The notes under the pieces: generated by a model | Told to the model about the DNA's origin: nothing | What the model saw: only the letters and a program-made list of their open reading frames with translations | Databases searched by the model: none | Made by a program: the position numbers and the translations under genes | Shown: positions 1,772 to 22,019 of the stretch, piece after piece | Layout: each line of letters begins with the position of its first letter | How positions within the stretch are numbered: the stretch's first letter is position 1 | Assembly: GCA_018262285.1 (NCBI GenBank) | Contig: JAGTRX010000011.1 | Coordinates: 1-36,573, forward strand | Source of the DNA: Pseudomonadota bacterium | Lineage (GTDB): Bacteria > Pseudomonadota > Gammaproteobacteria > Burkholderiales > Rhodocyclaceae | Reading direction: 5' to 3' | DNA length: 36,573 bases

Positions 1772-2725
1772 TCAGGGTTGAGTACTGCGCAAATCGATGG
1801 TCGCGGCCATCGACAGCCCCACCCGCAGTGGTGATTTTTCAAGTTCCTGCGGGTTCAGCCGGATACGGACCGGCAGGCGCTGCACCACCTTGATCCAGTT
1901 GCCGGTGGCGTTCTGCGCCGGAATCACGGCAAAAGCAGAACCCGTTCCGCCGGAAAAACCTTCGACAAGCCCATTGAAGACGACATTTTTGCCATGCAGA
2001 TCGGAGACCAGTTTTACGGCCTGGCCGACGCGAACCTTTTCCAGTTCAACCTCCTTGAAATTGGCGTTGACGTACATTTCCTGCAGGGGCACGACGGAGA
2101 GTAGTGGCATGCTCGGCTGCACGCGCTGGCCAAGTTGAACCTGCCGGCGAGCCACCACACCGTCAATGGGGGAGCGGATCACGGTGCGTTCGAGATCGAC
2201 ATTGGCTTTTTCGACGCGCGCCTGCGCCAGGGCAATGGCGGCTTTGGCCGCTTCGATGGCCGAACGTGCTGTGGCCTGTCCGTTTTTGGCGCTAGTTAAT
2301 TCATCGCCGGAAACTGAACCGGAGCCAGCCAGTGCGGCGCGGCGTTTTAGGTCGATTTCGGAGCGTTCCAGATTCGAGGTCGCAGCCGCCAGTTGGGCTT
2401 GCGCCTGCGCTTTGCCGGCTTCGGCCTGCTTCAGGGCCAGTTTGGTATCGGTTGCATCGATTACGACCAGCGTCTCGCCCTTTTTAACTTTTTGGGTATC
2501 GACGGCGTGAATTTCCGCCACTTTGCCGTCGATTTCTGCCGTCACCAGCGCAATATCGGCGGCTGTATAGGCGTTATCGGTCGCAACATAGCGTGACCCC
2601 ACCGTTTTCCAGTAAAACCAGTATCCGCCAGCGGCAATGCACACCACCACGGCGAGCAGCAAAAACAACCCCGCCCGCTTTTTATTGTCGCTGCGCTCGA
2701 TCAATACATCATTCTGCAATTCCAT
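1772..2725 (-). CDS. emrA: Membrane-fusion protein of tripartite efflux system (HlyD/EmrA family)
   Basis: About 317 residues. One N-terminal membrane helix (residues 18-38) anchors it in the inner membrane. A lipoyl/barrel-sandwich half-motif (DNAYTAADIALVTAEIDGKV) follows, then an Ala/Gln-rich coiled coil (about 92-182), the second lipoyl half (VIRSPIDGVVARRQVQLGQ) and a beta-barrel domain. This order is diagnostic of EmrA/HlyD adaptors that bridge the pump and the outer-membrane channel. Three in-frame ATGs lie close together (2743, 2734, 2725). I favour 2725 because AAAGGA sits nine bases ahead of it. The ATG at 2743 directly abuts the TGA of the preceding gene, which would also give translational coupling. 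Its partners are the flanking channel and pump genes. Confidence 0.88.
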   Translation of the reverse strand: MELQNDVLIERSDNKKRAGLFLLLAVVVCIAAGGYWFYWKTVGSRYVATDNAYTAADIALVTAEIDGKVAEIHAVDTQKVKKGETLVVIDATDTKLALKQAEAGKAQAQAQLAAATSNLERSEIDLKRRAALAGSGSVSGDELTSAKNGQATARSAIEAAKAAIALAQARVEKANVDLERTVIRSPIDGVVARRQVQLGQRVQPSMPLLSVVPLQEMYVNANFKEVELEKVRVGQAVKLVSDLHGKNVVFNGLVEGFSGGTGSAFAVIPAQNATGNWIKVVQRLPVRIRLNPQELEKSPLRVGLSMAATIDLRSTQP

Positions 2726-2743
2726 TTTACTCATTCCTTTCAT

Positions 2744-4258
2744 TCAAACTCTTGAGATCCAGTCTGGGCAAGCGGCGTCATTTTTTTTTCCGGAAGGAGC
2801 GCCAGCCAAGCGATAGCCGCCGCCCAGTGCACGAACCGTCGCCACATCCAGAATCAGCGCCCGCGTCTGGATTTCCGTCAGCGCCCGTTGCGCCCCCAGC
2901 ATGCCGTCTTCGGCAGCAAGCACGTCCAGATAGTTTGACAAGCCGCCTTCATAGCGCTGATTGACGATACGATGCGCCTCGCGCGCCGAGGCGAAGGAAT
3001 CGCTGAGCGCCTTGAGCTGTTTGGCGAGTTGTTGGCGGCTGGCGGCGACATCGGAGACTTCGCGCAAAGCATTAATCAGCGTGGCGTTATAGCTGGCAAC
3101 CGCCAGATCGTATTCGCCAAAAGCCGCGTCGAGTTGCCCTTCCAGACGTTTGGTATTGAAAATGGGCAGTGAAATTGCCGGACCGAAATTTCCGACCATC
3201 GAGCCCGACTTGGTCAGCATGTTGAGACCGAGCGAATGCACGCCAACAAAGGCGAGTAGATTGACGTTCGGATAAAACTCAGCTTTGCGCTGTTCGATGC
3301 GGTGGCTTGCCGCTTCGGCACGCAGGCGAGCAGCGACAATGTCGGGGCGCCGCCCCAGCAGTTCCAGCGCCAATTCCTGCGGCAACCCACGCGCAGCCGC
3401 CAGATCGATTTTGGGTCGTTCAATGCTCAGACTACGATCAGGGTCAGCACCTACCAGGGCAGCAATGGCGTTCTTCTGCAAGGCAATGCGTTCTTCCAGA
3501 ATGGCGACCTCGGCCTCGACGCCAGCCAGCCTGGACTCGACCTGCCGCACACTGCCGAGCGTCTCCAGCCCGTGCCGGTGACGATTGCGGAATAGATCAG
3601 CCGTCCTGGCGCGCACCTTCAAAGCTGCCATCGCCGTATCGTGCGCCTTGTGCAGATGCGCCAGCTCCGCGTAGGCAAAGCTGACGGCAGACGACAGGAT
3701 GAGCTTGGTCTGCGCGAGTTCGGCCTGCATGGACTCCTGCTCGTTCAGGGCAGAATTGAGAGCAGATTTGTTTTTGCCCCAGAAATCGAGTTCCCAGCCG
3801 AAATCAAGGGTCACCCGGCCATAATCGTTCCAGCCTTTTGGGGTGGCGGGTGGGGGTGGTGAGAGAAAGTTGTAGCTTTGCCGTTGTTCGCTGACCGAAG
3901 CGTTCAGCCCGACTTGCGGCAAACGGGAGCCTTCCGAAATCTGTACTCCTGCACCGGCTAGCCGCAGTCGCGCCCGTGCAATCGCCAGGTTTGGCGAGTT
4001 TTTCAGGGCCTCGTCGATCAAGGCGTCGAGTTGGGTGTCGCCATAACCGCGCCACCATGCTTCTTGCGGCCATTGCGCCTGCGATCCGGCCAGTGACTGC
4101 GCATGCTGGAGCTGACCAATCTCCTTGATTTCACCTGCAGGCTTAAATGGCGGAACAATGGCGCAGCCTTGCAAGGCCAATGCCATTATGAAGAACAAGA
4201 GCGCGTGACGCCCTGGATTGTTTTGCAACAATTTGCTTTTCAATCTTGCAATAGCCAT
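2744..4258 (-). CDS. Outer-membrane efflux lipoprotein (NodT/OprM-type TolC factor)
   Basis: 504 residues. The signal peptide ends in a lipobox (ALQGC, Cys32) with Ala at +2, which predicts lipidation and outer-membrane sorting. Two outer-membrane efflux repeats follow (about 65-270 and 285-475), with typical motifs such as QEAWWRGYGDTQLDALIDEA and ELLGRRPDIVAARLRAEAA. It should form the trimeric exit duct for the EmrAB-like pump encoded just downstream. It is the first gene of the operon, reading away from the tetR gene. The C-terminus is odd: a run of nine adenines (on the coding strand) encodes Lys-Lys in an unusual 18-residue tail after the normal family end; see findings. The start at 4258 has AGGGCGG about six bases upstream. 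Confidence 0.9.
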   Translation of the reverse strand: MAIARLKSKLLQNNPGRHALLFFIMALALQGCAIVPPFKPAGEIKEIGQLQHAQSLAGSQAQWPQEAWWRGYGDTQLDALIDEALKNSPNLAIARARLRLAGAGVQISEGSRLPQVGLNASVSEQRQSYNFLSPPPPATPKGWNDYGRVTLDFGWELDFWGKNKSALNSALNEQESMQAELAQTKLILSSAVSFAYAELAHLHKAHDTAMAALKVRARTADLFRNRHRHGLETLGSVRQVESRLAGVEAEVAILEERIALQKNAIAALVGADPDRSLSIERPKIDLAAARGLPQELALELLGRRPDIVAARLRAEAASHRIEQRKAEFYPNVNLLAFVGVHSLGLNMLTKSGSMVGNFGPAISLPIFNTKRLEGQLDAAFGEYDLAVASYNATLINALREVSDVAASRQQLAKQLKALSDSFASAREAHRIVNQRYEGGLSNYLDVLAAEDGMLGAQRALTEIQTRALILDVATVRALGGGYRLAGAPSGKKNDAACPDWISRV

Positions 4259-14101: not shown

Positions 14102-14998
14102 TCAGCGACCTGTCGTTGCAGCCTGACGGGACAGAATGTCGATCAGCAGTTTGGGCGGATTCTTGCCGCTACCGACAATTTCGACGTGTCCGGCTTTGAC
14201 GAGATATTCGCGTGAGCGCCGGTCGGCATCGACTACCGCTTGGCGCTGTTCATCGACTGCGAATATTTCGTCTTTCTCAAGGCAGCGGCCTTTTTCATCA
14301 AGGGTGCGACAGCTTCCGCGCTCGTCGGTCACAATTTTCAGATGATCCGTAACTGCTTCCTGCAGCGTTCCGGGTTCCTGGATCAATGGTACGCCAGGCG
14401 GGATTTCCGACCATTTGCTGCCGGTGATGGCCAGGCAAATGAGTTTGTTGAGGCCGAGACTGAGAACGGAATGTGGCAGCGACGCGCAATGTGAAGAAGC
14501 GCGAATGCCGCCAAAGGGTGTCGAGACGGTAACGAGGCGGATATCGGCTCCAACCAGGGAAACACCATTTTCTTTGACCAATGCCCGCCTTGCCACCAGC
14601 CCGCCCTGGCTGTGCCCAACCACGGTAATGCGGCGTACCCCGGTTTTTTTGATCAGTTGTTCAAGGATTTGTGCGAGTTGCAGGGCGCTGTGCGAAATGC
14701 GGTCGCGGTCGTCGTAGTTGAAACAGTAGGCCTGTTTGCCTTGCGCCTTGAAAGCGTCGGCGACCAACGCATATTCGCCGGCGGAAGCCAGACAGCCATG
14801 GACGACGACAACCAACTCGCGCGAGGGGTCAATGTCGACAGGCCGGTCAAAGGCGGTATTGCAAATCCCGAACTGATCGATTTTAACGGAGACCCGGCCG
14901 CCTGAAAGAGCGGATACCTCGGCTGGGGGAATCGACAAGCCAGTCGCGCAGGCGGTCAGCAGCAAGGCCGAAAGGATGGCTGATAGTACTGTTTTCAA
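14102..14998 (-). CDS. Outer-membrane-type lipoprotein with lipase/esterase (alpha/beta hydrolase) domain
   Basis: 298 residues. The signal peptide ends in lipobox LLTAC (Cys17), with Ala at +2, predicting outer-membrane sorting. The body is an alpha/beta hydrolase: oxyanion strand VVVVHGCLASAGEYALVADA, then nucleophile elbow VVGHSQGGLVARR (Ser130), resembling triacylglycerol-lipase/PGAP1-like proteins. A fairly Cys-rich loop lies in the C-terminal half. The start codon is TTG, chosen because AGAGGA lies six bases upstream and no ATG/GTG fits. It is 12 bp downstream of another hydrolase lipoprotein gene, also on the minus strand, so the two are likely co-transcribed. The substrate cannot be predicted. 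Confidence 0.82.
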   Translation of the reverse strand: MKTVLSAILSALLLTACATGLSIPPAEVSALSGGRVSVKIDQFGICNTAFDRPVDIDPSRELVVVVHGCLASAGEYALVADAFKAQGKQAYCFNYDDRDRISHSALQLAQILEQLIKKTGVRRITVVGHSQGGLVARRALVKENGVSLVGADIRLVTVSTPFGGIRASSHCASLPHSVLSLGLNKLICLAITGSKWSEIPPGVPLIQEPGTLQEAVTDHLKIVTDERGSCRTLDEKGRCLEKDEIFAVDEQRQAVVDADRRSREYLVKAGHVEIVGSGKNPPKLLIDILSRQAATTGR

Positions 14999-15010
14999 TT
15001 GGTTTCCTCT

Positions 15011-15880
15011 CTACTTTTTCGGGCAATTTTTGAGGGAATGTTCAAGAAATTGCTGCAAGCTGGCGCGATTCTCCGTTCTGTCCGCCATGAAGGTGACGAG
15101 ATGATGGTCACCCTCCTTTCGCCAGTAGGTCGCATCCTTTGGCAACAAGGCGGCTAGTCGATCGCCATGCGCCACTGGTATCACACTGTCGGCGCTGCCG
15201 TGCACCAGCAAAATGGGCAATTTGCCAAACTGTCCGATGAGTGGCGCAGCGTCATGTTGGTTACCGACCAATAGAGTGGCGATAAAGGATTTTAGCGGCC
15301 GTGGCACATCATCAGAGGCCATTTGGTCGATGGCAATTTCGCGGTGGCTGGAAAAAGTGCCTTCGATGACAACGCCGCAAACGCCACGCCGTTCCCGCGC
15401 CAGGGCGGTCAGGCTGTAGGTTCCGCCCAGGCTCTGGCCGAAAACCAGCAGGCGGTTGTGATCGATGTCCTTGCGGCTCTGGATGTAGCGTATTGCCGCC
15501 ACGCCGTCCTGGGTTAAACCCTCGGGTTCCGGCGTGCCGGCGGATTTGCCGTAGCCACGATAGTCAAAAAGAAAAAGGTTAAAACCTTTTTCGGCTAGCC
15601 AGTCCGTGTAGTGCAGATGGCCGGAAATGTTCTTGCTGTTGCCATGAAAGTGAATCAGCGTGCCCTGGGCCTGACCTTTGGCCGGAATGAACCAGCCATG
15701 CAGGCGTGTGCCGTCGAGGCTGGTGAAGAAGATATCTTCATAGCGCAATCCCTGATTGGCGGGATTGGCATACTGCTCTTGCGTAGGCCGGTAAAAGTAA
15801 TGATGGGCATCGCAGCCTGGCAAGGAGGCAAGACACGCCAGCAAGCAATAAATTTCCAGCCATCTTTGTGGTCGTGCCAA
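15011..15880 (-). CDS. Lipoprotein alpha/beta hydrolase (BEM46/YfhR-like serine hydrolase)
   Basis: About 289 residues. A short signal sequence ends in lipobox SLPGC (Cys23) followed by Asp, the +2 residue that retains lipoproteins in the inner membrane of E. coli. The hydrolase fold is clear: FHGNSKNISGH, YRGYGKSAGTPEPEG, nucleophile elbow VFGQSLGGTYS, acid VHGSADSVIP, and base in EGDHHLVTF, so Ser, Asp and His are all in place. Either a TTG at 15895 or a TTG at 15880 could start it. I choose 15880 because GAGGA is seven bases upstream, whereas nothing similar precedes 15895. Together with the next gene it forms a two-gene unit of envelope hydrolases. Confidence 0.78.
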   Translation of the reverse strand: MARPQRWLEIYCLLACLASLPGCDAHHYFYRPTQEQYANPANQGLRYEDIFFTSLDGTRLHGWFIPAKGQAQGTLIHFHGNSKNISGHLHYTDWLAEKGFNLFLFDYRGYGKSAGTPEPEGLTQDGVAAIRYIQSRKDIDHNRLLVFGQSLGGTYSLTALARERRGVCGVVIEGTFSSHREIAIDQMASDDVPRPLKSFIATLLVGNQHDAAPLIGQFGKLPILLVHGSADSVIPVAHGDRLAALLPKDATYWRKEGDHHLVTFMADRTENRASLQQFLEHSLKNCPKK

Positions 15881-16004
15881 AGCGGAAATCCTCAAAATGT
15901 ACGGTCAGTTCAGCAGACGGATTCTCCGATTAAAGCCGTGAAAAAGCCAGAAAGATGGACAACGACTAAATACTTGCTCTTTCACGATGAGAATTGGCCA
16001 TCGA

Positions 16005-16033
16005 TTGCGCTTGATCCGGATTTTCGTTAGTCT
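16005..16033 (+). promoter_or_regulatory. Possible sigma-70 promoter for the DUF4332 gene
   Basis: TTGCGC (16005-16010) and TAGTCT (16028-16033) are separated by exactly 17 bases, about 60 bp ahead of the start at 16094. Both elements are imperfect. It is the best candidate in the 213-bp gap between the hydrolase gene start and the DUF4332 gene. The rest of that gap shows no gene or strong hairpin. Confidence 0.35.
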
Positions 16034-16093
16034 GCACATACCGCAGGCATTGCCGCATTCTGCGTTTTTCAACCACCCTGAGGAGTATCGAGC

Positions 16094-16498
16094 ATGGCCA
16101 AAATCGAAGATGTTGAAGGAATCGGTCCGGTATTCGGCGAAAAGTTGCGCGCTGCCGGTGTCAAGGATACGGAAGCGATGCTGCAAAACTGCAAAACGCC
16201 CAAGCAGCGCAAGGAACTGGCGGCCAAGACAGAAATTGCGGAAGCGAAAATCCTCAAGTTTGCCAATATGGTCGATTTGCGCCGGGTTAATGGCATCGGT
16301 TCCGAATTCTCGGAATTGCTCGAAGCGGCTGGCGTTGATACCGTTCCCGAACTGGCGCAGCGCAAAGCTGCCAATCTGGCGCAGGCAATGGCCAAGGTCA
16401 ATGAAGAGAAGAAGCTGACCCGTCGTGTGCCTTCCGAAACTGAAGTTGCAAAATGGGTCGAGCAGGCAAAAGCCCTGCCTAGGGCGCTGGAATACTGA
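16094..16498 (+). CDS. DUF4332 / helix-hairpin-helix protein
   Basis: 134 residues. Two similar helix-hairpin-helix units are visible: [17 protein letters not shown] (residues 7-23) and [17 protein letters not shown] in the middle. Each is followed by a helix and an Ala/Lys-rich stretch. This is the pattern of DUF4332 proteins, relatives of the HhH motifs that contact nucleic-acid backbone non-specifically. The protein is small and Lys-rich with no signal peptide, so it is presumably cytoplasmic, possibly DNA- or RNA-associated. No function is established to my knowledge. The ribosome site GAGGAG lies eight bases before the ATG. The acylphosphatase gene follows after about 50 bp on the same strand. 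Confidence 0.82.
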
Positions 16499-16547
16499 GC
16501 CAGCGCGATTGATGGCCGCAGGCGCCCCCTGCGGCTATTTTCACGAA

Positions 16548-16823
16548 ATGCTTTTGCATCTGCGTATCTACGGCCGGGTTCAGGGTGTTGGTTTTCGCCA
16601 TTACTTGACGCGAGCGGCGCGCCAGCTTGGTCTTTATGGCTGGGTGCGCAATCGCAGTGATGGTTCGGTCGAAGCGGTGGCGTGTGGTTCAGAAGAGGCA
16701 GTGCAACAATTGCTGGCCTGGTCACAGCGCGGCCCGTCAGCCGCCTTTGTCGAGCGGGTGGAAAGTCAGCCCTGGGAGGGTGAGACACCGAAGGCAGATT
16801 TCGTGCAGCGCTCCACAATTTGA
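16548..16823 (+). CDS. acyP: Acylphosphatase
   Basis: 91 residues, the standard size. The two family signatures are [19 protein letters not shown] (with the phosphate-binding Arg17) and [17 protein letters not shown] (with catalytic Asn35). It hydrolyses acyl phosphates such as acetyl phosphate and 1,3-bisphosphoglycerate in the cytoplasm. The frame is open further upstream. The ATG at 16548 starts right before the first beta-strand and fits the family; an in-frame ATG at 16512 would add 12 residues. No convincing ribosome site is present before either, so the start is uncertain. Confidence 0.92.
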
Positions 16824-17258: not shown

Positions 17259-20200
17259 TTATTTTTCGGCTGCCTGCGCCCTGAAGTAGCGTTCCGGCCC
17301 CACCGTCTTCAGCACTGCCAGCGTCAGCAGTTCATCATCCAGTTCGCCTTCGGCCGAGAACAGGTGCTGGATACGGCCGTTGCGGCTTCGCTTGCCTTGC
17401 ATCAGGCGCGGGGTCAGCGCTTCACCCATCGTTGATACCATGCAGCCGCTTGGGGCGATGTTGAGGACGACATCGGCGCCATGTTCGAGTTCGTGCAGCA
17501 CTTCGCCAACATAGGGGGCCAGTTCGCCGGCAGGACGCAGATTGGGCAAAACAGTGCGCGCCATATCCATCAGTTCACCAACCGGGGTGGGCAAGGGTAG
17601 CCCGGCGGCCTTGTAGATCGGGCCGCCAAGGATGTCGCGCAGGATGCTGCGCATGGTCTTCAGTTCGGCGATCTTGGCCTCGTCAGCCTTGATTTCGGCC
17701 TTGAGGTCGGGTGCTTGCTGGCAGCGTGATGCCTTGGCGCGGCGTGCGGCCATGCCGTGTTGTGTATAGTTGATTTCTTCTTCGATCAAGTATTCGGCGT
17801 AGCACCACAGTGGCGTGACGTGGAAATGGAAACGCCCGAAGCCCATGTTGGCGAGCAGATTGCGGAAGACCTGCTCGGCCATTGCGATGCGCATGTAGAC
17901 TTCGCCTGTTGCGAAGATATTGAGTTTTTCGGCGCCGCTATCAGGCTGCTCAGGCCATTCGTTGGTAAAGCGCGCAATGGGGGCGGCCAGATCCTTGCCG
18001 TGCATGCGGTAGCCAAAGAATTTGAGTGCCTGGCCGAATCCCTTGGTATTGCCATATTTCTTCAACAGCCAGGAAACAAGCTTGCCCGGCCCGCGGAAAT
18101 TTTCCTGAATGGCGTACAGTTCTTCCTTGAGGCCAAGGAAGGCCTGATGGTAGCGTTGGTATTCCTCAGTATTGCGGCAGACGGAAGCGGCGCGGAAATG
18201 AAGGTCTTGCAGCACGGCCTGCAACATGGCGCCTTGGTAGATGCGTACCTGCGCCCATTCCGGCAGACCGAAGTTGTAGCCATTACTTTCGTTGGCAACG
18301 AGGAACTGCATTGAGCCGCCACAGGCCAGGCGTGAACCCTTGTCATCGTTGGTGTCACTCTGGGTGATCTGGTGCGCCAAGAGCTTATGCACTTCAACGT
18401 ACTGGCCTTGCCGGCAGGGGCCGGTGCCTTTGTTGTTGAAGTAAAGTAGTCGAGTTTTACCAGCAGCGAGCGGGTCGTTCTGTTCCTTGCGGCGGGCGAA
18501 ATCTTCCATCGCCCACAGCAGATCGCCATAAACGGCGGCCAGCGGTGCACAGACGGAATCGCCGGCATAGGCACGGCCGCGCTTGACCAGTTTTTCCAAA
18601 TTGTATTCGGCGTGATAGGTGTCGATGCAGGTAAAGCCGGCGCCGCGCAGCACCGAGGTCAGGACGCGGTTGTCGGCTAGGGTCGGGATGTAGATGGCGT
18701 CGGTGGCCGGGTTGAGCGCGTCCTTGTTTTCCAGTTCGTCGAGCAGTTTGACTTCAAAAGCCTCGCTGCCACCCAGCGACAGCTTTTCGTGCAGACCGAG
18801 TTCGAGCTGGCGGACATAGGTGTTGACGCGGTTTTCCAGGTGCGCCAGTTCCTTGATGATGGCGTCGGACTGGATGAGCAGGAAAGGCCGTTTTTTCATG
18901 ATTTCGGCTGCCAGATGCGAAATCACGCTGTCCGGGCCGCAGGTGAAGGTGGAAATCTGTACCACCGGCAGCAGCTTGCCCGCCGTGTTATTTTCGATCT
19001 TCTCGAACAGTGCTTTGAGGCGCGGATGCTTGAGGCGCTGATGCAAATTCTTGTGCGCCACAGCATTGAGAATGGTCAGGATGGCGTGCGGATTGCGCCA
19101 GTAAATGTGGCGGAATTCCTCGTCCAGTTCGACATCAAGCACGTAGGAGGGAATGGCGAGCAGGCGCTTGTCGCGCAGCAGGCGCCGGATATGGCTATCG
19201 TAAATGCCGGGGGTTAGGATGTATTCACGGCCGACAACAACGGCAATTTCCTGACCCTTGCCTTGGGCTTCTTCGATCAGGTCAGCGGCAAAGTCAGCGG
19301 CTTCCTGCTTGAGTTTACGGTGCGCGGCGATGGCGGCCGTCAGTGCCACTTCCAGTTCCTGCCGCAGGGGAACGCGGCCGTAGTATTTGAAGACCGGGCG
19401 CAATTGTTCGTAGAGCAGATCGCAGAGGACACCTTCGTTCAGCTCGGAGAGCATGAGCGTGAACGAGTGGAAGCGCGCATTGGGGTACGCCACCTTGGCC
19501 AGATTGTTGGCGACGGCGACGCCGCCCTGATTGAGCGTACAGGTGCGGCCCATGCTCTTGCCTTCGGTCGGCAGCATTTCGATTTGCGGCACCAGAATCA
19601 TGCCGTGCGGCGCTTCCGCCAGACGCATGAACTGGCCGACGGCGCCGATGTGGGGGGCGCAGGTGTCCACATTGAATTGCGGCTGGCCACGCACCAGATC
19701 GTATTCATTGACGTTGTCGACATGCACTGGAATCTTGAATTGCTGGAAGATGGCGGCGATAAAACCGGCCCATTCGGAAACGCAGAAGCTGCGGGCGATG
19801 ACCAGACGCTTGTGGTCGTCGCTCTTGGGCAGGCGGGCATCGATGAAATCCCAGATTTCCTTGTAGCTGTCGCGCGGCGGATTGGGCAGCGCGATGGTCT
19901 GGTCGCGGTTTTGCGACATGCGTTCATTGATGGCGCTACAGCCGCCCAGCGTAAAGATGAACTGCTTGCCTTCCGTGTCGCGGCACTTGAGCGAGGTGCG
20001 GTTGCAGACGGCGGATTCGTCGCCGCAGGCCAGCCCCTTGCACTGGATGATCTTTTTTTCGAATTGCGATTCGATGAAGAGGGGCAGATCGATGTCGATG
20101 GAACCGGCCGGGGCGGCTTCGCGCAGCACGCGCACTAGCCCGAAACAGGCGCGGTGGCCGGGAAAGGGCGGCACCAGTGCGTAGGAAGGCGCATCCAGAT

Positions 20201-22019
20201 AGCTTTGCAAACGCGAGGTGACAGCCAGCGGTAGCGGGTCGGACAGCATGGTCTGGCCGTGCAGCAGCACGACCGTATTGGGCGGCAGATCAACCTGATT
20301 CCACAGGCTGCGCGCCATGTTCTCAACAATGGCCCAGTTGGCGGAAGCCAGAATTTCACCGCGCGGCACGCCTTCGGCCTGCAGCTTCTGGGCGTTTTCC
20401 ATCAGGAAGACGGCGCAGGTGGCGTTGATCGAGAAGCTCTTGGCGGCGTCGTAGGCCAGTTTGCTCGCTTCGCCGGCATTCTTGAGGCCGAAGAGGGCGG
20501 AGAGCGTATCCATCAAACTGCCAGTGCCGGCCGAGCACTTCAGGTTCATGGCGTTGTTGAACAGCTCGGCCTCACGCAGTGCGATGGTGGAGACCTTGGT
20601 ATCTTCGCCGCCGATGTCGACCAGAATGCAGAAATCCTCGTTCAGTTCGGCGATGCCGCGTTCTTTCAGCCAGCCCAGATGAGCGCGGGCAAAGTCGATG
20701 GAGCCGTGGGCGTGCGCGTAGTTTTCCACCAGCACCGAAGTGCGCGGCACCAGCGCCGGGTAAATGCGAGTGAGTGCTTCCTTCACCTGAAAGCGGGCAG
20801 AACCGGTGATGCCGATGGCGCGCACCTTGAGCGTCTGGCCGACCTGTTCGCGGATGTCCTGGAAAATGTTCTTGACGGTGTCGACGGTGTCGCCGGAGTT
20901 GCTGTAAGCCTTGATCGACAGCGCTTCGCCGCTTTCGTCGTCCTCGATCAGCACCTTGGCCATGGTCGAGCCGACATCGAGGCCGATGTTGACGGCGCGG
21001 CCGGCAAAGCTGGCGTTGCTGGGCAGAGCGCGGTCGTCGGGCAGGCGCAGGTATTTTGATTCGCCTTCCAGCTTGGCCTTGATGGCGGCGAAGGCCGGGA
21101 ATTCCTCCAACTCCGAATCGTTGAACAGAGCGGGGTCGGGCTGAGCCAGATTGGTGATGCCGACTTGCTGCACCAGATGATGCAGCGCTTTCAGGACGCG
21201 GCTGTTTTCGGTGTCGTAATCGACGGCGGTGATGCCGATGGCAGCCAGACAATCCTCGGCGCAGTCGCGGGCGAACTGCCAGCGGAAAATGCGGCCGATC
21301 AGACAGGCATGGTCAAAGCCCTTGGGCAGCTTCTGCATCGTTTTCTGCACTTCCGACTTCAGCGTCGTGGCCAGCGCGACAGAGAGCGGAATGCCCTGAT
21401 TCTTGTCGGAAATGGTGGCGGAAGAACTGAAGACGCCGCAGCGGTCGGCACGGGTGAGGACGGCCTGGCGTTTTTCCTTGCCGGCTTCACCCAGATATTC
21501 AGCCAGTAGATTGTCGACGGCATCACGCTTCAGGCCTAGTTTTTGCAGCACGCGGTCGAGGTTGACGCCAGTGCCGGCGCCGCAGCGCGGGTTGGTGATC
21601 AGCAGGTCATCCTTGAGCTGGCCTTCGCGGTCGAGGCCGATAATCATGTAGCCGGAGGCCGAAATCTCAACCATCGCTAGCGAACGAACGCTGCTGGCAT
21701 CGGTCTCGGCAATGGCTTCCTTGGCGGCCAGCCAGAGGGCAGCAGCGGGCATGAAGACCTTGCCGCAGCCCAGACCCTGGCGAATCATCGGCGCCAGTTT
21801 GCCGGTCAGGAAAATCGGGCTGTCGGAGCCACTGCCGAGGCGCTCAGTTAGCTTGCACTCGGCCAGCAGGGCTTGCAAATTCTGGTTACTGGCAAAGAGC
21901 TGGTCGGCAACTGCGTTGCCTTCGGCATTGCAAGCCAGCATGCGAATGTTGGCGATACCGGCGTCGATAAAAATCTGGGTGGCTTCGGGGGGCAAGACAA
22001 ATGCGTTGGGGTCGGTCAT
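17259..22019 (-). CDS. Giant 2-hydroxyacyl-CoA dehydratase activase-related protein: two BcrAD/BadFG ATPase domains, DUF2229 and HgdB-like C-terminus
   Basis: 1586 residues, cytoplasmic, no signal peptide. The first ASKHA domain (about 14-300) carries NPRCGAGTG with Cys146 and DRCGVFSSSATISDKNQG with Cys194. The second (about 343-640) carries GLDVGSTMAKVLIED, VDIGGEDTKV, KCSAGTG with Cys495 and NATCAVFLMENAQKLQAEG with Cys535. In HgdC/BadF activators these two Cys per monomer bind the inter-subunit [4Fe-4S] cluster, so both domains look competent and could form the cluster in one chain. A Cys-rich knot follows (Cys660, 665, 672, 679, 694). Next are a DUF2229-like region (about 740-960) and a C-terminal half with more conserved Cys (1027, 1157, 1202, 1233) resembling dehydratase D-component/double-cubane-cluster proteins. 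No CoA-dehydratase subunits are encoded nearby. The gene is transcribed alone, divergent from asnO. The ATG at 22019 has no clear ribosome site. The reaction is unknown. Confidence 0.85.
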   Translation of the reverse strand: MTDPNAFVLPPEATQIFIDAGIANIRMLACNAEGNAVADQLFASNQNLQALLAECKLTERLGSGSDSPIFLTGKLAPMIRQGLGCGKVFMPAAALWLAAKEAIAETDASSVRSLAMVEISASGYMIIGLDREGQLKDDLLITNPRCGAGTGVNLDRVLQKLGLKRDAVDNLLAEYLGEAGKEKRQAVLTRADRCGVFSSSATISDKNQGIPLSVALATTLKSEVQKTMQKLPKGFDHACLIGRIFRWQFARDCAEDCLAAIGITAVDYDTENSRVLKALHHLVQQVGITNLAQPDPALFNDSELEEFPAFAAIKAKLEGESKYLRLPDDRALPSNASFAGRAVNIGLDVGSTMAKVLIEDDESGEALSIKAYSNSGDTVDTVKNIFQDIREQVGQTLKVRAIGITGSARFQVKEALTRIYPALVPRTSVLVENYAHAHGSIDFARAHLGWLKERGIAELNEDFCILVDIGGEDTKVSTIALREAELFNNAMNLKCSAGTGSLMDTLSALFGLKNAGEASKLAYDAAKSFSINATCAVFLMENAQKLQAEGVPRGEILASANWAIVENMARSLWNQVDLPPNTVVLLHGQTMLSDPLPLAVTSRLQSYLDAPSYALVPPFPGHRACFGLVRVLREAAPAGSIDIDLPLFIESQFEKKIIQCKGLACGDESAVCNRTSLKCRDTEGKQFIFTLGGCSAINERMSQNRDQTIALPNPPRDSYKEIWDFIDARLPKSDDHKRLVIARSFCVSEWAGFIAAIFQQFKIPVHVDNVNEYDLVRGQPQFNVDTCAPHIGAVGQFMRLAEAPHGMILVPQIEMLPTEGKSMGRTCTLNQGGVAVANNLAKVAYPNARFHSFTLMLSELNEGVLCDLLYEQLRPVFKYYGRVPLRQELEVALTAAIAAHRKLKQEAADFAADLIEEAQGKGQEIAVVVGREYILTPGIYDSHIRRLLRDKRLLAIPSYVLDVELDEEFRHIYWRNPHAILTILNAVAHKNLHQRLKHPRLKALFEKIENNTAGKLLPVVQISTFTCGPDSVISHLAAEIMKKRPFLLIQSDAIIKELAHLENRVNTYVRQLELGLHEKLSLGGSEAFEVKLLDELENKDALNPATDAIYIPTLADNRVLTSVLRGAGFTCIDTYHAEYNLEKLVKRGRAYAGDSVCAPLAAVYGDLLWAMEDFARRKEQNDPLAAGKTRLLYFNNKGTGPCRQGQYVEVHKLLAHQITQSDTNDDKGSRLACGGSMQFLVANESNGYNFGLPEWAQVRIYQGAMLQAVLQDLHFRAASVCRNTEEYQRYHQAFLGLKEELYAIQENFRGPGKLVSWLLKKYGNTKGFGQALKFFGYRMHGKDLAAPIARFTNEWPEQPDSGAEKLNIFATGEVYMRIAMAEQVFRNLLANMGFGRFHFHVTPLWCYAEYLIEEEINYTQHGMAARRAKASRCQQAPDLKAEIKADEAKIAELKTMRSILRDILGGPIYKAAGLPLPTPVGELMDMARTVLPNLRPAGELAPYVGEVLHELEHGADVVLNIAPSGCMVSTMGEALTPRLMQGKRSRNGRIQHLFSAEGELDDELLTLAVLKTVGPERYFRAQAAEK

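Follow-up and report, generated by a model that had tools for sequence, protein, structure and literature searches.

A gene at 17259..22019 on the minus strand of the window, the 36,573-nucleotide stretch of DNA analysed here, encodes a protein of 1586 amino acids (ATG start) that is, on balance, best read as a PlsA/Ger-like, ATP-driven ester-to-ether reductase of the BCR/HAD superfamily. The enzyme is probably an oxygen-sensitive reductase. Its mechanism class is fairly secure, and its lipid substrate is suggested across an amino acid identity of about 23%. The protein combines an activator and a HAD-type reductase in a single chain and belongs to a divergent PlsA/Ger-like subfamily. The self-contained design is already known from PlsA and Ger; the window protein stands apart by its divergent branch, found in some Proteobacteria, and by the motif loss in its first activator domain (Act1).

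The gene is a single ORF encoding two ASKHA domains and a DUF2229 acceptor, as the initial annotation had proposed, and the chain order is Act1-Act2-knot-Red1-Red2, all on the minus strand. Act1 (ASKHA-1; residues about 1–340, 21000..22019) retains the cluster cysteines Cys146 and Cys194, and its usual phosphate motifs are replaced. Act2 (ASKHA-2; residues about 341–640, 20100..20999) carries the ATP motifs DVGSTMAK and DIGGEDTK and the cluster cysteines Cys495 and Cys535. A cysteine knot (residues 660–694, 19938..20042) is followed by the HgdB/HadBC-like unit 1 (Red1; residues about 720–1095, 18735..19862), which has the putative ligands C787, C827 and C1027 and contains the DUF2229 match (residues 741–952, 19164..19799), and by the PlsR-like unit 2 (Red2; residues about 1100–1586, 17262..18722), which has C1157, C1202 and C1526 as well as C1131 and C1281, both invariant in the subfamily only. 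The two Pfam matches, BcrAD_BadFG (PF01869; residues 345–601, within ASKHA-2) and DUF2229, are both above their curated cut-offs. Two stretches match TIGR00241 with 90.6 bits, below the curated cut-off of 125.4. PF06050 (HGD-D) was not reported for any of the 16 subfamily members with E-values up to 10 allowed, and the relatives L035, L048 and L049 show weak PF06050 matches at the region of the third cysteine. No transmembrane-like stretch was found in the window protein (best 19-residue Kyte-Doolittle mean of 1.58). Comparison with the nearest relative, L002 (86% amino acid identity), gave a dS of 0.65 and a dN of 0.088. Because 17 relatives occur in public contigs and dN/dS is about 0.13, the gene encodes a constrained protein under purifying selection.

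The Act1-Act2-Red1-Red2 design is already known from single-gene PlsA (plasmalogen synthase) and its relative Ger (glycerol ester reductase). This domain order of PlsA is given in the legend of Fig. 8 of PMC12838417. The same paper describes plsA-plsR of C. perfringens as two genes, a single gene as common in facultative anaerobes, and the formation of plasmalogens upon expression of plsA genes in E. coli. According to PMC13274423, Ger is an enzyme like PlsA and has two activation domains. It forms saturated alkyl ethers (PMC11150832, PMC13274423), and PlsA and Ger are said to be inseparable by sequence alone (PMC13274423). Outside the subfamily, the same architecture was found in proteins of 1282–1479 amino acids from Collinsella, Listeria, Paraclostridium, and Haliovirga, which are annotated as 'acyl-CoA dehydratase activase' or '2-hydroxyacyl-CoA dehydratase'. 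The comparison rows were labelled PlsA/Ger-type by their length, by the order of their genes and domains, and because PMC9702350 mentions Listeria, rather than by a named sequence; the rows scanned against NCBIfam returned no PlsA-named match. In two comparison rows (L036 and L046), Red2 lies on a separate downstream ORF with its three cysteines present. Split layouts in Fusobacterium (1002 + 410 amino acids, stop to stop) and Subdoligranulum (979 + 485 amino acids) resemble the plsA-plsR operon. An Enterococcus ORF of 4,248 bp (first ATG to stop) with an adjoining TetR-like ORF fits plsA of E. faecalis, which has a published length of 4,248 bp (PMC12838417); a TetR neighbor of plsA is described in PMC9702350. 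This ORF shares 54–55% identity with the Listeria and Acetoanaerobium proteins and about 25–29% with the Pseudomonadota PlsA/Ger-type rows.

The window protein shares 23% identity with the Enterococcus ORF (1066 columns, E 1.7e-20) and about 20–25% identity with the PlsA/Ger-type rows in long matches, below the >30% identity cut-off used to search for Ger homologues in Bacillota (PMC13274423). Profile comparison with hhalign matched all four regions of the subfamily to their PlsA/Ger-type counterparts, with probabilities of 95.4 for Act1 (E 1.7e-8), 99.8 for Act2, 93.3 for Red1, and 90.9 for Red2. Two activation and two reduction domains are present in one ORF, with Red2 recognized mainly through relatives. 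Like PlsA of Enterococcus and Lactococcus, the window protein is one chain with the same domain order, the core cysteines, and no partner dehydratase gene. It differs from PlsA in its length (1586 versus about 1415 amino acids), its low identity, the loss of the Act1 ATP motifs, and five extra invariant cysteines. Unlike plsA, it has no TetR gene named among the scanned window neighbors. By description, it also resembles Ger of Thermotoga maritima and Desulfatibacillum alkenivorans in having two activation domains.

For the activator half, the structure of residues 1–720 was predicted with a mean pLDDT of 81.4 and a pTM of 0.79, with poorly modelled cluster loops (residues 192–207, including Cys194, have pLDDT <50). 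The ASKHA-2 model (residues 341–639) is most similar to 9gai_C of methylbenzoyl-CoA reductase (Z 20.3, rmsd 2.5, 259 residues aligned), followed by HadI (4ehu_B, Z 20.0), HgdC (1hux_A, Z 19.4), and DCCP-R (7yyl_E, Z 19.1). The ASKHA-2 tree did not resolve the place of the subfamily relative to stand-alone activators. Both ASKHA domains had initially been described as complete. Both cysteine pairs are indeed kept, but the first domain lacks the usual ATP motifs throughout the subfamily. At the motif positions, Act1 reads FIDAGIANIR (residues 17–26) and VEISASGY (residues 117–124). Its DxGSTxxK motif is absent in 16/16 subfamily rows, where the D and G remain (and the K in L071), and GG(Q/E)DxK is changed to SASGY in the same 16 rows. 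The Act2 ATP motifs are kept in all 16. Among the comparison rows, both Act1 motifs are intact in six of the seven from Bacillota, Actinomycetota, and Fusobacteriota, with L035 partly changed. They are eroded in all five Pseudomonadota PlsA/Ger-type rows that have Act1 (L048, L049, L068, L069, and L070; in L069 the first motif only in part), so ATP motifs in both domains may not define PlsA/Ger. Across these few rows, the pairing of a live Act2 with an Act1 that appears to lack the usual ATP site is a wider theme in Pseudomonadota, and it is most extreme in the window subfamily.

In HgdC-type activators (1hux), one cluster sits between two subunits, with two cysteines from each. Since the cluster lies between subunits there, the tandem ASKHA domains can be regarded as one activator, and by this analogy they most likely build one shared cluster, not two. 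With the ATP motifs of Act1 lost, this activator is probably asymmetric, with a predicted ATP site in Act2 only. The loss of the usual Act1 phosphate motifs in 16/16 rows would also suit a degenerate or regulatory paralogue, in which Act1 is dead, electrons are not pumped, and the protein acts as a redox or ATP sensor. We regard such a paralogue as very improbable, given that the Act2 motifs are kept in 16/16 rows, the cluster cysteines are invariant, dN/dS is 0.13, and Act1 is also eroded in 5/5 Pseudomonadota PlsA/Ger-type rows.

The structure of the acceptor half (residues 640–1586) was predicted with a pLDDT of 70.6 and a pTM of 0.67, and its fold matches were obtained with VIA-align. Residues 724–1053 (model residues 85–414) match 3o3m_D of 2-hydroxyisocaproyl-CoA dehydratase (Z 12.2, rmsd 3.8, 253 residues aligned), 9gai_B (Z 11.2), DCCP (7yyl_D, Z 11.2; 6eno, Z 10.9), and BzdNO (8s02_B, Z 11.1). 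Foldseek alone gave no match for this half at E <= 0.001 (3o3m_D at E 0.019), and a profile search against PDB sequences returned only two thioredoxin-like chance matches. Using hhalign, unit 1 with comparison rows added matches a profile of ten HGD-D proteins with a probability of 94.2 (E 1.1e-7, 284 columns); with fewer comparison rows and another match-column rule, the probability is only 49 (P 1.7e-4). Unit 1 and unit 2, with comparison rows added, match each other with a probability of 95.5 (E 1.5e-8), and six ASKHA comparisons serving as controls gave P-values of 0.11–0.51. The strong values need the comparison rows: for the subfamily alone, unit 1 versus unit 2 gives no signal (P 0.39), unit 1 versus HGD-D gives P 0.002, and unit 2 versus HGD-D gives P 0.095. 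In none of the five set-ups used does unit 2 match the HGD-D profile more than weakly (P 0.0009 to 0.095). Because fold matches and profile comparisons agree, the C-terminal half most likely consists of two HgdB-like units in tandem; unit 1 is well supported as such a unit, and unit 2 mainly through relatives. R931 and Y933 in Red1 and G1372-E1373 in Red2 are common to at least 80% of the comparison rows and were not seen in the aligned stretches of YjiM.

The conservation of cysteines among homologues, on which the initial annotation had made its model depend, is high. Nineteen positions are Cys in every subfamily row that has a residue there (16 rows): 146, 194, 253, 464, 495, 535, 625, 660, 665, 672, 694, 787, 827, and 1027, and in unit 2, 1131, 1157, 1202, 1281, and 1526 (the last in 15/16 rows, with one gap where a row is cut at a contig end). 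The annotated cluster cysteines 146/194 and 495/535 and knot cysteines 660/665/672/679/694 are all present. Of the five-Cys knot, C660, C665, C672, and C694 are invariant in the subfamily, but C679 is variable and is Cys in only 12 of the 16 rows. Ten core cysteines (146, 194, 495, 535, 787, 827, 1027, 1157, 1202, and 1526) are common to the subfamily and the PlsA/Ger-type rows, and five (253, 464, 625, 1131, and 1281) are invariant in the subfamily only. Depending on position, the core cysteines are kept in 10 to 13 of the 13 comparison rows: 12, 12, 13, and 13 for those of the ASKHA domains, 13, 13, and 13 for unit 1, and 10, 10, and 10 for unit 2. The misses fall in the short or split rows L036, L046, and L047, and in L035.

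The pattern of cysteines bears on the cluster type. The [8Fe-9S] site of BzdN is described as held by six cysteines (Cys36/73/100/263/293/327), and the single [4Fe-4S]-OH2 site of BzdO by three ligands (Cys95/128/380) (PMC11971306). Cysteines C787/827/1027 of unit 1 align with C78/C108/C335 of YjiM in an alignment that spans nearly the whole unit, and these three columns hold Cys 10, 9, and 10 times among the ten HGD-D rows. All six double-cubane columns are Cys in four rows: YjiM, L039, an Azoarcus fusion, and Sulfurovum. In the window family, unit 1 has three invariant cysteines, all at core columns, and lacks invariant Cys at the other three double-cubane columns, unlike DCCP/DCCP-R of the E. 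coli YjiM/YjiL type, whose folds are otherwise alike. With three core cysteines in each Red unit and not six in one, two single [4Fe-4S]-type sites are expected rather than a double cubane. The initial annotation had guessed at a double-cubane [8Fe-9S] type. A DCCP-like protein with such a cluster, which would reduce small molecules, draws some support from the DCCP, DCCP-R, and BzdNO chains among the top fold matches (6eno, 7yyl_D, 8s02_B, and 7yyl_E), from the failure of fold alone to separate double-cubane from single-cluster units, and from the five invariant cysteines of unit 2. As six are needed in one unit and the units have three and five, we give this guess very little credence. Unit 2 carries the extra invariant C1131 and C1281, so an unusual cluster there is possible. 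The window protein also resembles HgdC/HadI and HadBC, with like activator and acceptor folds and with acceptor sites of three cysteines, like those of single-cluster proteins; in those systems, activator and enzyme are separate proteins, whereas here all parts are in one chain. The union of activator and acceptor proposed in the initial annotation is supported by the ASKHA-2 matches (Z 19–20), the conserved cysteines, and the similarity of residues 724–1053 to the HgdB/DCCP-like folds of HadBC, BzdNO, Mbd, and DCCP chains (Z 11–12).

A working mechanism can be proposed for a PlsA/Ger-like reductase. Ferredoxin or flavodoxin would reduce one [4Fe-4S] cluster with Cys146/194 (Act1) and Cys495/535 (Act2) as its ligands. 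At the only live site, that of Act2, ATP would then cause a change of conformation through which the electron gains a lower potential. The electron may next move, perhaps past the Cys4 knot, into the [4Fe-4S] clusters of Red1 (C787/827/1027) and Red2 (C1157/1202/1526). There it would reduce an acyl ester at its carbonyl; this ester would most likely be that of an acyl chain of a membrane glycerophospholipid, and protonation with loss of water, or further reduction, would yield a vinyl or alkyl ether. The cluster types and the donor, the path of the electrons, and the lipid substrate and its product are all inferred. PlsA and Ger are reported to convert acyl esters of membrane glycerolipids to vinyl or alkyl ethers (PMC12838417, PMC11150832). 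Since the architecture matches these enzymes, membrane glycerolipid esters are the candidate substrate class. The substrate had been left open in the initial annotation, and the likeness to PlsA/Ger replaces this with a concrete first hypothesis, with the lipid itself still conjectural.

The same machine may instead act on another substrate, as an ATP-driven reductase or dehydratase of a CoA thioester, another carbonyl, or an aromatic compound. The mechanism class would be identical, these folds also serve stand-alone HAD and BCR enzymes, and the very long stem of the subfamily together with its five subfamily-only invariant cysteines suggests an altered function. However, the fused Act1-Act2-knot-Red1-Red2 order and the extra residues are shared with PlsA/Ger-type proteins, and no neighbor gene family occurs in more than 3 of 18 loci. 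We therefore consider another substrate a serious but clearly lesser possibility, and retain ester-to-ether reduction as the preferred reading.

Relatives were retrieved by a pattern-based scan of 84,980 species, each represented by one genome; the count is a lower bound. The scan found at least 16 loci (L002–L017), which come from bins of Beta- and Gammaproteobacteria, from one bin of Desulfuromonadales, and from the isolate Formivibrio citricus DSM 6150 (L016); one further relative (L032) came from a viral collection. Full-length matches are rare: counting the genome of the window, they occur in 2 of 297 genomes of its family and 2 of 369 genomes of its class. Three more genomes in the class survey match weakly (E 7e-5 to 7e-4) with ORFs 30–50% identical to the PlsA/Ger-type row L048, and at the level of the phylum, DUF2229 itself occurs in 4 of 398 genomes. 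The tree is rooted at its midpoint and comes with warnings about long branches and composition. In it, the window protein falls among its own kin, and the 15 subfamily rows lie on one side of a branch with a support of 100/100. At about 6 changes per column, the stem of the subfamily leaves room for a change of substrate. L071 (46% identity) joined the subfamily rows after the tree. Three relatives were left out of the tree and of the residue, Cys, and motif counts: L011 (ORF breaks and N), L015 (match ending near residue 1109, and N), and L012 (partial). Alignment A1 leaves out L011 and L015.

If ether lipids are made by this protein, anaerobic plasmalogen or alkyl-ether synthesis would extend to a divergent branch of Betaproteobacteria, with a gene to mark it. 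To our knowledge, the host bacteria of this divergent lineage are not known to make plasmalogens. No report of ether-lipid synthesis by such proteins in Betaproteobacteria was found among the matches listed, and the founding papers on PlsA and DCCP may list these proteins. More tentatively, and with the odds rather against it, the subfamily may form a third and very divergent lineage among the self-contained, ATP-driven reductases of the HAD type, scattered over Beta- and Gammaproteobacteria and a Desulfuromonadales bin, with an asymmetric activator of one shared cluster and one ATP-binding domain, acting on membrane lipids or a wholly new substrate. If a pseudo-ATPase and an active ATPase share one cluster, this would matter for the ATP spent per electron in the superfamily; the ATP cost would be halved, or the gating changed, for each very-low-potential electron.

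The host genome (93.7% complete, 5.2% contamination) has the window gene as its sole BcrAD_BadFG match. In agreement with the initial annotation, no dehydratase subunit was found among the 20 window ORFs scanned against NCBIfam, and PF06050 has no match in the whole genome. Low-potential electrons are plausible, since the genome carries RnfC (E 4e-156) and a 2-oxoacid:ferredoxin oxidoreductase (POR). An anaerobic ribonucleotide reductase was not found in the genome, and PF00142 matches there are mere fragments covering 31 to 38 profile positions, giving no sign of a nitrogenase reductase. Upstream of the window gene there is no FNR box (4 mismatches; 193 of 200 shuffles are as good), and among the 16 upstream stretches scored, one-mismatch FNR sites occur only in L005, L013, and L015.

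A survey of the homologous loci, based on crude ORFs of at least 90 amino acids and flanks of varying length (L010 and L012 have none), identified no conserved partner gene. The largest neighbor cluster spans 3 of the 18 loci, so the gene seems to stand alone. The osmolyte (NAGGN) gene reported as adjoining is indeed next door in the window, but none of the ORFs at the other 17 loci clusters with it, and it was rejected as a linked gene. In L002, the counterpart of the reductase gene directly follows an OmpA-domain ORF, which clusters with the motD ORF of the window.

The relative encoded in Paraclostridium (locus L035, 4638-8486), which lies outside the subfamily, lacks both the Cys knot (residues 660-694 of the window protein) and the three unit 2 cysteines (C1157, C1202 and C1526 in the window protein). 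The cysteines of the activator and of unit 1 are kept in this protein. From this single case, the knot and unit 2 may act jointly.

The plasmid of Azoarcus sp. KH32C encodes a 685-aa fusion protein (2044-4101), of which the first ~290 residues (N-terminal) cluster with the adjoining activase. The HgdB-like unit fused after this part has cysteines at all six double-cubane columns. This protein represents a distinct activator-acceptor fusion.

Genes adjoining some of the subfamily members encode a glycerophosphodiester phosphodiesterase (L006, 7160-8227), a GDSL acylhydrolase (L009, 6899-7663) and an electron-transfer flavoprotein alpha subunit (L005, 12969-13925). These neighbors are suggestive of lipid and electron chemistry and are not conserved among loci. 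The region downstream of the window gene (14102-16818) contains two ORFs that resemble alpha/beta hydrolases, as well as one of 249 aa that matched no family. One-mismatch FNR-like sites are located 71-128 bases ahead of the likely start in loci L005, L013 and L015, and were equaled by 1-2 of 200 shuffles; no such site was found upstream of the window gene.

Subfamily member L032 (58-9809) is from an IMG/VR contig classed as viral. Its gene is located at the contig end, with DNA methylase, phage virion and tail-fiber genes as neighbors; this copy is either phage-borne or host DNA adjoining a prophage. A fused PlsA/Ger-type protein was also matched by 15 INPHARED 'phage' records; in six of these the match covers 80% or more of the protein. 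The one record read among the 15 (OR846627.1; L072, outside the subfamily) looks like host DNA submitted as phage.
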